Assembly: GCA_002105175.1 (NCBI GenBank)
Contig: MCGE01000008.1
Coordinates: 1,364,001 to 1,428,000, forward strand
Length of the DNA: 64,000 bases
Source of the DNA: Absidia repens
Taxonomy: Eukaryota > Mucoromycota > Mucoromycetes > Mucorales > Cunninghamellaceae
Direction of reading: 5' to 3'
Below, piece after piece: positions 27,683 to 32,054 of this stretch. The translations under genes were made by a program, and so were the position numbers. How positions within the stretch are numbered: the stretch's first letter is position 1; each line of letters starts with the position of its first letter. The notes under the pieces are model-generated. The model was not told the DNA's origin and ran no database searches. It saw nothing but the letters and a program-made list of their open reading frames with translations.

Positions 27683-29936
27683 ATGAGAGAAATTATTTCC
27701 GTTCATGTTGGTAAGGTTTCATAAACGCTATCACTCTTAAAAACAGCTACTCATTCTTCAACAATGATACATAGGTCAAGCTGGTGTCCAAATTGGTAAT
27801 GCCTGTTGGGAACTTGTAAGTAACAAAGACATGATGCAAAATATACTCGTCATTAACACTTTTTTTTTTTTTTTCATCTTTTTATAGTACTGCCACGAAC
27901 ATGGTATCCAACCTGATGGTCGCTTACCTGAAGGTACCGATATCGCTGACCACTCGTAAGTGAACGAGAAGTTTTTTTTTTTTCCCCTCTCCTCCCCCTT
28001 TTTCACTCCCTGATGTTTGCCCACCCTCTGCAGGAGTTGATTCAAAGATTCTTTTTTGGTGATGGTACAGTACATACTCATTTGCTTTCCTTTTTTTTTC
28101 TTCTTTTTCTAGGTTTGAAACCTTTTTCTCTGAAACTGGTAATGGCAAGTATGTCCCTCGTACCGTTATGGTGGATTTGGAACCCTCTGTTATTGACGAA
28201 GTCCGTTCTGGTACTTACCGTCAATTATTCCATCCTGGTAAGAATATAAGAACGACAAGAAGACGAGGAAGGATACATCAATAGTTAACCATCTTTTTTT
28301 ATTGATTAGAACAATTGATTTCTGGTAAAGAAGATGCTGCCAACAACTATGCCCGTGGTCATTATACCGTAGGAAAGGAGATGGTGGATAGCGTGTTGGA
28401 TCGCGTGCGTAAGTTAGCTGACAACTGTAGTGGACTTCAAGGTTTCTTGGTATTCCACTCCTTCGGTGGTGGTACTGGGTCTGGTTTTGGTTCTCTTTTG
28501 ATGGAACGTTTGTCTGTGGATTATGGCAAGAAATCCAAACTTGAATTCTCAGTGTACCCTGCTCCTCAAGTCTCCACCTCCGTGGTAGAACCTTACAACT
28601 CTGTCTTGACCACACACACTACTTTGGAACACTCTGATGTCTCATTCATGGTCGACAACGAAGCTATCTATGATATCTGTCGCCGCAACTTGGATATTGA
28701 ACGCCCTACTTACTCCAACCTCAACAGATTGATTGCCCAAGTCGTGTCCTCCATCACTGCTTCTCTTCGTTTCGACGGGTCTCTCAATGCTGATTTGAAC
28801 GAATTCCAAACTAACTTGGTGCCTTATCCTCGTATCCATTTCCCTCTTGTCACCTATGCTCCTATCATCTCTGCTGCCAAGGCTTACCACGAACAAATGT
28901 CTGTCGCCGAAATCACAAACTCTTGCTTTGAACCCAACAATCAAATGGTCAAGTGTGATCCTCGTGAAGGCAAGTATATGGCTTGTTGTATGCTGTACCG
29001 TGGTGACGTTGTCCCCAATGATACCAACTCTGCTATCTCTGCTATCAAGACTAAGCGTACCATTCAATTCGTCGACTGGTAATGAAAAGAAGAAATAACT
29101 GGGTTATGGCGTGTATTGACTTTTTTTTTTTTTTTTACTTTATTTTACTATGAACTTTAGGTGTCCTACTGGTTTCAAGGTAATGTTTGAATGACATATA
29201 CATATAGAAAAGAGTAATCGTTCACCACTTACTTACCTTCCTTTCTTCTTTTCTCACCTATAGGTTGCTATCAATGGTCAAGCCCCTTGTGTGGTTCCTG
29301 GCGGTGACGTCGCAAAGGTTCAACGAGGTAAGTTTAACAACTTCTTTTTTCTTTTTCATGTTCCTTTTACTCATCTTCTCGTCCTGTCTCGCCTCCCTTA
29401 TCAACCTATTTCTTTTACTAGCGTAAGTTACAAAAAATAGGTCAATCCATATATTTCTTATATCTCTGATATTAATACTCCTCTTTTTTTTTAATAGTGT
29501 AAGTACAATTTGGTTGCCAAATGCCTATTTTTCTTTTATTTATTTACTAATGTTTTTCTTTTTTTGCACCGTCTATCTATCTTTGTATCATGTAGTGGTA
29601 AGTCATCGACCCCTGTTTAATTTTGTACCCAATACGTCTACACCATCGATCTCCCTCTCTTTTTCTTTTACTAATCATTATTCTCTTTCTTTTGAAACCA
29701 TTAGTTGTATGTTGTCCAACACCACATCCATTGCTTCTGCATGGAGCCGTCTTGACCACAAATTCGATTTGATGTATGCCAAGCGTGCCTTTGTCCATTG
29801 GTATGTTGGTGAAGGCATGGAAGAAGGTGAATTCTCAGAAGCCCGTGAAGATTTGGCCGCTCTTGAAAAGGATTATGAAGAAGTTGGTTCCGACTCTCTT
29901 GGTGATTCTGAAATCGAAAACGACGAAGATTATTAG
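27683..29936 (+). CDS. alpha-tubulin
   Basis: Exons 27683-27710, 27775-27815, 27888-27955, 28113-28237, 28310-29078, 29161-29179, 29264-29327, micro-exons 29422, 29498 and 29596-29597, and 29705-29936 sum to 1,350 nt, i.e. 449 aa, the normal length. [20 protein letters not shown] and [10 protein letters not shown] are alpha-type; [12 protein letters not shown] is the GTP-binding tubulin signature; DLNEFQTN keeps the catalytic Glu that triggers hydrolysis of beta-tubulin GTP. The H1-S2 loop is two residues short and lacks the acetylatable Lys40 found in animals. The C-terminus is acidic and ends in Tyr (ENDEDY), so it could be detyrosinated. It polymerises with beta-tubulin into microtubules. 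The junction after KVQR is unusual: without the three micro-exons the frame is lost. Confidence 0.96.
29422..29597 (+). other. three consecutive alpha-tubulin micro-exons of 1, 1 and 2 nt
   Basis: Between exons 29264-29327 and 29705-29936 there are three places where a consensus acceptor is followed at once by a consensus donor: TTTTACTAG-C-GTAAGT (exon base 29422), TTTAATAG-T-GTAAGT (29498) and CATGTAG-TG-GTAAGT (29596-29597). The introns so defined are 94, 75, 97 and 107 nt, normal for this window. Joining G + C + T + TG + TTGTATG gives GCT TGT TGT ATG, i.e. KVQR-ACCM-LSNTT, exactly the family length (animal KVQR-AVCM-LSNTT). Direct joining of the outer exons gives the wrong frame. Confidence 0.8.
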
Positions 29937-31990: not shown

Positions 31991-32000
31991 TTTCATTGCG

Positions 32001-32054
32001 TATAGTATAGTATAGTATAGTATAGTATAGTATATATATATATATATATATATA
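32001..32054. repeat. (TATAG)6 (TA)12 compound microsatellite
   Basis: Six perfect TATAG units followed by twelve TA units. Lies at or just beyond the right end of repeat copy B. Confidence 0.97.

Follow-up and report, generated by a model that had tools for sequence, protein, structure and literature searches.

Candidate exons of one and two nucleotides in an alpha-tubulin gene of Absidia repens and comparable layouts elsewhere in its genome

The window analysed here is a 64,000-nucleotide (nt) stretch of the Absidia repens genome (contig MCGE01000008.1, positions 1,364,001 to 1,428,000). We identified in it an eleven-exon alpha-tubulin gene on the (+) strand (27683..29936; Table 1), which encodes 449 amino acids (aa) when three consecutive micro-exons of 1, 1 and 2 nt are all used. 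These micro-exons were proposed in an earlier note on this DNA, and their coordinates, their bases and the flanking exons all check against window sequence 29264-29936. Exon 7 ends in ...GTT CAA CGA G, followed by a GTAAGT donor, and the last exon begins at 29705, where an ATTAG acceptor is followed by TTGTATGTTGTCC. The predicted spliced string over the array is CAACGAGCTTGTTGTATG (bases CTTG at the junction), and its retranslation gives KVQR-AC-CMLSNTT, with the frame restored and the product of the length that had been claimed. The layout itself, and the need for it set by frame, motif and paralogs, can be read in the DNA. On this evidence, the gene very probably carries an intron array with exons of 1, 1 and 2 nt, and is one of a genome-wide set. 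Four ordinary-sized, U2-type introns would be separated by these exons, an alanine codon (GCT) being split G/C/T and the next codon TG/T.

Sites of the form YAG-N(1-2)-GTAAG[T/A] occur three times in the 377-nt stretch, against a mean of 0.00285 in 20,000 dinucleotide-preserving shuffles of it (Poisson about 4e-9). Since shuffled stretches carry only about 0.003 such sites on average, three are far beyond chance. The array introns were described in the earlier note as of normal size (75-107 nt), which agrees with the 58-157 nt range of 24 ordinary introns from five alpha-tubulin genes, all with GTA donors (24/24; donor scores 2.2-6.2 bits). The introns found beside 1-2 nt exons (n = 25) also have GTA donors without exception (25/25), measure 63-129 nt and end in TAG (24) or CAG (1). 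A CTNAY motif lies 12-60 nt from the 3' end in 22/25 of these and in 16/24 ordinary introns. The donors at tubulin micro-exons are GTAAGT in 6/7 cases versus 11/24 in ordinary introns, a difference that is not significant (Fisher P 0.09). Seven other inclusion patterns of the three micro-exons are possible; five shift the frame, whereas the C-only and T-only patterns keep it but yield one residue fewer.

The residues made by the array fall in a conserved motif. We compared 316 alpha-tubulin-like proteins (the best 120 matches from each of three lists), leaving out 38 in which the motif was not readable (among them several fragments and several in which two residues can be made out by eye). In the other 278, R and C are separated by two residues in 289 of the 291 motif occurrences listed, and 288 of these 289 pairs begin with A or S (AV 242, AL 19, AC 15, SV 5, AI 4 and AA 3, leaving 3 oddities). 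The gap-free fit to the tubulin motif (ACCM) put forward in the earlier note has this near-universal spacing. The oddities are the pair GN, which occurs once, in P0072 only, and the spacings of P0080 and P0084, the only ones other than two. P0072, an annotated protein of Absidia cylindrospora (Mucorales, Cunninghamellaceae), has the highest identity among the proteins listed (447/449 positions), and the two positions at which it differs from the micro-exon model are the residues made by the micro-exons, GN for AC. In P0080, annotated in Chlamydoabsidia padenii, the sequence is KVQR-GKSVSFYV-CLLSNTT (8 residues in place of 2), and in P0084, annotated in Halteromyces radiatus, it is QVQR-AVSFSKTLCK-CMLSNTT (10 in place of 2). 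By translation, RGK corresponds to read-through of CGAG-GTAAGT and RAVSF to read-through of CGAGCT-GTAAGTTTC. These annotated proteins are probably mis-annotated arrays, gene predictors having failed at the same tubulin array in Chlamydoabsidia and Halteromyces. Absidia glauca P0240, the apparent counterpart of another A. repens alpha-tubulin gene (L024, below), has a normal AV pair.

The A. repens genome encodes at least five alpha-tubulin genes that are readable end to end. The nearest paralog of the window gene, L021, differs from it by 0.014 nonsynonymous (dN) and 0.90 synonymous (dS) substitutions per site upstream of the array (dN/dS about 0.016), and by dN 0.011 and dS 1.00 downstream of it (dN/dS about 0.011). 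Strong purifying selection thus acts on the window alpha-tubulin both before and after the array, as for a functional gene, and the reading as a pseudogene or decaying gene was rejected on the low dN/dS.

At the same place, this duplicate has AG/C/GTAAGT, AG/T/GTAAGT, AG/C/GTAAGT and AG/TG/GTAAGA, and then AG/TGTATG, that is, four micro-exons. With C, T, C and TG all used, the predicted spliced string is AAAGAGCTCTGTGTATG, which encodes KVQR-AL-CMLS, with the second most frequent pair of the motif. The four sites compare with 0.00535 expected in shuffles (Poisson about 3e-11). Although the micro-exon sites follow the same order in both genes, their array introns show no alignment with each other (z at most 2.9); ordinary intron pairs of the two genes also fail to align in 5/6 cases, and the sixth has z 3.2. 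The two arrays could be interconverted by loss or gain of one C micro-exon together with one T at the last exon, exchanging CTG (Leu) and TGT (Cys). Array introns 2 and 4 of the duplicate (122 and 114 nt) contain inner acceptor-like sites (TATAG/GTATCA, and a T-run followed by GTAG/GAAG), perhaps relics of further splice sites.

The three other paralogs (L022, L023 and L024) have one intron (97, 97 and 115 nt) at the first array position, in phase 1, followed by unbroken coding sequence, so an intron at this position is common to all five alpha-tubulin genes compared. After the single intron, L022 reads G then CTTGTTGT, the same bases as G+C+T+TG+TTGT in the window gene, which has three further cuts. 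L023 reads G then CATGTTGT and L024 reads G then CTGTGTGT.

The micro-exons had been taken as an isolated case, but the layout recurs in seven other genes, for which the same kind of sequence argument can be made. Pattern searches covered the whole genome (47.4 Mb in 79 contigs). Together, eight genes contain 15 one-base and 2 two-base exons that frame and motif require (L062, Table 1, is not counted). Exactly one nucleotide between AG and GT, with introns of its own on both sides, was found at 29422, at 29498 and at 13 more sites in the seven genes. Consecutive arrays are present in alpha-tubulin (two copies), the Ca2+/H+ exchanger CAX (two copies), Rho1 and a Rho-like GTPase, and single one-base exons in a 3-ketoacyl-CoA thiolase and a UBE2W-like E2 enzyme.

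Both CAX genes read LPIIG / A / A / T-GCT GCT GAA CAT, so that the asparagine codon AAT of GNAAEH consists of two one-base exons and the start of the next exon (predicted spliced string GGGAATGCTGCTGAA). The product of L070 matches PF01699 and aligns without gaps across GNAAEH to 4k1c, a vacuolar calcium ion transporter. Rho1 reads GDGACG-A / A / G / ACT TGT, with predicted spliced string GGAAAGACTTGT, and its residues 1-98 align gap-free to Rho1 5zvp; with the same split in the Rho-like gene, the Rho array may have been in place before the two Rho genes diverged. In the thiolase, PRIM-G / G / T-GTT GGT yields PRIMGVGPAYA, in which IMG[VI]GP aligns to 2iik, and in the E2 gene the reading is IHP-CA / T / GTA TAT (HPHVYSNGHICL), with HPHVYSNGH aligned to 2mt6. 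The residues that require the micro-exons thus fall in conserved stretches, which we take to be the P-loop of Rho1 (its lysine), GNAAEH of CAX (its asparagine), IMG[VI]GP of thiolase, HPHVYSNGH of E2 W and GKTC of the Rho-like protein. Omission of any micro-exon shifts the frame in the CAX genes, Rho1, the Rho-like gene, the thiolase, E2 and L062.

Table 1. Exons, introns and further loci considered. Unprefixed positions are those of the window; G000 is the genome, followed by contig and range.
Feature	Position	Strand	Description and basis
Alpha-tubulin exon 1	27683..27710	+	MREIISVHV..; spliced reading, same boundaries in spliced alignment with Mucor query
Alpha-tubulin exon 2	27775..27815	+	Spliced reading and Mucor-query spliced alignment
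Alpha-tubulin exon 3	27888..27955	+	Spliced reading and Mucor-query spliced alignment
Alpha-tubulin exon 4	28113..28237	+	Spliced reading and Mucor-query spliced alignment
Alpha-tubulin exon 5	28310..29078	+	769 nt; spliced reading and Mucor-query spliced alignment
Alpha-tubulin exon 6	29161..29179	+	19 nt, ..CPTGFK; spliced reading and Mucor-query spliced alignment
Alpha-tubulin exon 7	29264..29327	+	Ends in KVQR + G (Ala codon base 1); spliced reading, flat-cost aligner adds 4 nt
Array intron a	29328..29421	+	94 nt, GTAAGT..TAG; same position as single intron of three paralogs
Candidate micro-exon 8	29422..29422	+	C, Ala codon base 2; TAG/C/GTAAGT, duplicate gene also C
Array intron b	29423..29497	+	75 nt, GTAAGT..TAG; sequence
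Candidate micro-exon 9	29498..29498	+	T, Ala codon base 3; TAG/T/GTAAGT, duplicate gene also T
Array intron c	29499..29595	+	97 nt, GTAAGT..TAG, includes TTTACTAAT; sequence
Candidate micro-exon 10	29596..29597	+	TG, bases 1-2 of TGT (Cys); TAG/TG/GTAAGT, duplicate gene also TG
Array intron d	29598..29704	+	107 nt, GTAAGT..TAG, includes TTTACTAATC; sequence
Last exon	29705..29936	+	T-TGT ATG.. CMLSNTT.. stop; spliced reading, dN 0.011 and dS 1.0 vs duplicate
Rival single intron, judged wrong	29332..29704	+	P0072 annotation; flat-cost spliced aligner
CAX Ca2+/H+ exchanger L070	G000:C2:1229000-1233000	minus	Candidate consecutive one-base exons A, A
CAX Ca2+/H+ exchanger L083	G000:C37:88900-90900	plus	Candidate consecutive one-base exons A, A
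Rho1 L073	G000:C67:1095200-1097200	minus	P-loop Lys AAG over three exons, two of one base
Rho-like GTPase L067	G000:C14:289800-293800	minus	GDPNCGKTCLV; same Lys split, A/A/A; GKTC aligned to 2gcn
3-ketoacyl-CoA thiolase L096	G000:C12:2487400-2488700	plus	Candidate one-base exon G in PRIMGVGP
UBE2W-like E2 L072	G000:C48:112200-114200	minus	Candidate one-base exon T in HPHVYSNGH
L062	G000:C39:113500-117500	minus	Membrane-protein-like, family not identified; frame needs one-base T

Other pattern hits were viewed in less depth: most of L034-L060 and L071-L087 as short contexts, and 18/33 hits of one search as the printed match alone. Five hits (L061, with a cyclophilin-like exon starting GGTAAGTCC, L063, L068, L069 and L097) were rejected as ordinary, judged by eye without a family search, and no coding context was seen on the hit strand at L066, L088, L089, L091, L093, L094 and L095. 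At L064 / L040 (G000:C11 near 435,700, plus strand), TTTTTAG/CTATTAGC/GTAAGT may hold an 8-nt exon (alternatively a one-base C) with coding-looking flanks, and at L050 (G000:C37 near 123,050, plus strand) TTTTTTTGTAG/ATCAGA/GTAAGT is a possible 6-nt exon. In the window, downstream of the tubulin gene, there is a GTATA/TA simple repeat at 32000-32054.

Several points weigh against the micro-exon reading. Exon size is itself a prior against it, exons of 1-2 nt being very rare. Genome-wide pattern counts were never above those of reversed controls and were mostly lower (for example 26 hits vs 56 for two patterns together, and 33 vs 107 in another search), and thus the case rests on the individual genes. 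Moreover, the donor statistics are biased for six of the seven other genes, because the search patterns that uncovered them required a GTAAG donor; the duplicate tubulin was located through homology, and the window gene came from the earlier note. For Rho1, an equal-length model with one 2-nt exon (AA) also keeps the lysine, but it needs a GAG acceptor and a donor of -8.2 bits. A spliced aligner with a flat intron cost (Mucor tubulin query) picks a single intron in the window gene, and in the duplicate it keeps TG alone and loses one residue. The same single-intron splice is that of P0072, the sole annotated protein of the window gene examined. It would be one long intron (373 nt, donor GTTTAA) that lengthens exon 7 by GTAA, preserves the length of 449 aa with KVQR-GN-CMLS (predicted spliced string CAACGAGGTAATTGTATG, bases GTAA at the junction) and makes the micro-exon signals accidental; it was not mentioned in the earlier note. 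We give this structure very little credence, as its donor scores -9.58 bits against at least 2.2 in the 24 ordinary introns, its length compares with a maximum of 157 nt among them, its GN pair is absent from all other motif occurrences among the 291 listed, and it offers no explanation for the perfect GTAAGT sites or their acceptors. We also enumerated in-frame, stop-free single-intron models (GT/GC-AG, with donors within -30/+60 and acceptors within -60/+30 nt of the flanking exons). An equal-length alternative was found in 1/9 genes, the window gene, and this enumeration gave none for the duplicate; in the thiolase the single-intron alternative is one residue longer and has a weak donor. 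One middle exon of the full missing length was absent in the window gene, where a 4-nt exon was rejected for want of any such site, and in both CAX genes and the Rho-like gene. In the duplicate, a single 5-nt middle exon gives three models, all interrupted by a stop codon; for the one-base cases, the middle-exon search offered no site besides the proposed exon.

It is similarly improbable that the window array is a regulated or leaky splice switch, in which partial or variable use of one micro-exon (C or T) would produce a tubulin one residue shorter. The C-only and T-only models do remain in frame, and an artificial 1-nt exon in potato invertase was skipped in 33% of transcripts, as cited in PMC4674806. 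However, one-residue spacing occurs in 0/291 of the motif occurrences listed, all three micro-exon sites of the window gene are strong, and the duplicate requires all four of its own micro-exons for two-residue spacing. Least probable of all is a stwintron or a classical recursive unit, in which an inner intron interrupts an outer splice signal or zero-length ratchet sites regenerate donors. Consecutive excision would be common to stwintrons and the tubulin array, and the inner intron of some stwintrons adjoins, rather than splits, the outer donor (PMC9024468). Against this, no donor or acceptor is interrupted: both are complete before any splicing in 25/25 introns beside 1-2 nt exons, although the branch site is less certain (CTNAY as counted above). 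Between AG and GT, 1-2 nt, not zero, are retained at every micro-exon of both tubulin arrays, and a zero-length version of one search pattern had 2 matches in the genome.

The earlier interpretation is therefore supported as regards three micro-exons in succession (1, 1 and 2 nt), in a gene on which purifying selection is strong, but not as regards recursive splicing in which each splice recreates a donor, because the unspliced RNA already contains each GTAAGT in full and no earlier splice assembles a donor or acceptor. We infer that the micro-exons are actually spliced, and constitutively. Intron definition would suffice to recognise each intron, as each is of the usual length and has complete signals: an intact donor and acceptor of its own and, in most cases, a CTNAY branch-like site. 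Removal most likely proceeds one intron at a time, with single bases carried into the mRNA, since adjoining 3' and 5' splice sites 1-2 nt apart could hardly be occupied together for steric reasons. For a 9-nt exon of potato invertase, the second intron leaves before the first, as cited in PMC4674806. A failed splicing step would mostly shift the frame, and the array thus comes at a cost in accuracy.

How such arrays arose is less certain. With confidence somewhat short of even, we suggest a recurrent class of old, codon-splitting arrays, comprising perhaps about 40 one-base exons (a rough figure: 8/26 matches of two patterns, divided by a recall of 0.18 estimated from 24 introns), formed by repeated insertion of introns beside exon junctions. 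That introns were added beside an existing junction is a weaker step in the argument; because the first array position is common to all five genes compared, one old intron may have been joined by neighbours. Under the same tentative reading, introns could have inserted, for instance, through reverse splicing into mRNA that had just been spliced and subsequent reverse transcription, and the old age would be reflected in the tubulin and CAX arrays common to gene duplicates, the tubulin array probably being present also in Chlamydoabsidia and Halteromyces. A search for intron-to-intron similarity as a trace of duplication gave no convincing pair among nine array and three single introns (best array pair z 3.5, both in L021); the single introns of L022 and L023 have z about 6 against each other. 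A different origin for the same layout, which we hold about as tentatively, is compensated frame loss: a boundary base is lost, and a cryptic AG-N-GT within the intron then comes into use as a 1-nt exon. Such a capture scenario has been proposed for Fusarium CYP621A (PMC12940212), and between the window gene and its duplicate the absence of one micro-exon C and the addition of one T at the last exon form a compensated pair. Capture, though, would have to repeat two to four times at one junction with the right base each time, and intron insertion would keep the bases automatically. We lean to insertion.

Constitutive use of a 1-nt exon has been described for Arabidopsis APC11, where intron definition with one-after-another removal has been proposed (PMC4674806), and plant APC11 and VPS55 one-base exons, as well as a rice transcript with adjacent 5-nt and 12-nt microexons, are described in PMC8831610. 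As in APC11 and VPS55, the 1-nt exons proposed here lie between two spliceosomal introns and are overlooked or mis-modelled by annotation; unlike these plant cases, for which one 1-nt exon at a time is described, there would be two or three 1-nt exons and a 2-nt exon in succession, the codon being cut after every base. The one-base exon of Fusarium CYP621A, backed by 18 reads from the SRA and called the first for a fungal gene (PMC12940212), is likewise fungal, concerns one base in a conserved motif and was inferred from frame and motif. That case concerns one exon, in a P450 subfamily of a single ascomycete genus, whereas the present cases are consecutive arrays in unrelated housekeeping genes of a Mucorales genome. 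An exon of one base pair is also known in placozoan mitochondrial cox1 (PMC5436844), which shares the exon size with the tubulin array but is mitochondrial. Fungal stwintrons (117 in one Hypoxylon genome, PMC9024468; see also PMC8469720) share with the array neighbouring introns that leave by consecutive reactions, but their inner intron splits or adjoins an outer splice signal, whereas here all donors and acceptors are intact and coding bases are kept between introns. Recursive splicing at ratchet points or RS-exons (PMC6224609) is similar in the stepwise use of AG beside GT. Among the matches listed in searches of the open-access PMC literature on one-base exons, fungal or Mucorales micro-exons and tandem microexons, we found no consecutive one-base exons, nor any one-base exon in Mucorales. 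The introns of placozoan cox1 are removed by mitochondrial self-splicing or trans-splicing and not by the nuclear spliceosome. Ratchet sites are zero-length AG/GT junctions, unlike the present sites, at which 1-2 coding bases are kept.

If RNA confirms these predictions, the spliceosome of this fungus would routinely join one-base exons, several in succession, in essential genes. This would be a limit case for exon recognition, in which exon definition is hardly possible, and would make ordered splicing directly testable on natural substrates. The arrays would also be a rare trace of introns gained one base apart, and would show that conserved proteins can be corrupted at such places during annotation.

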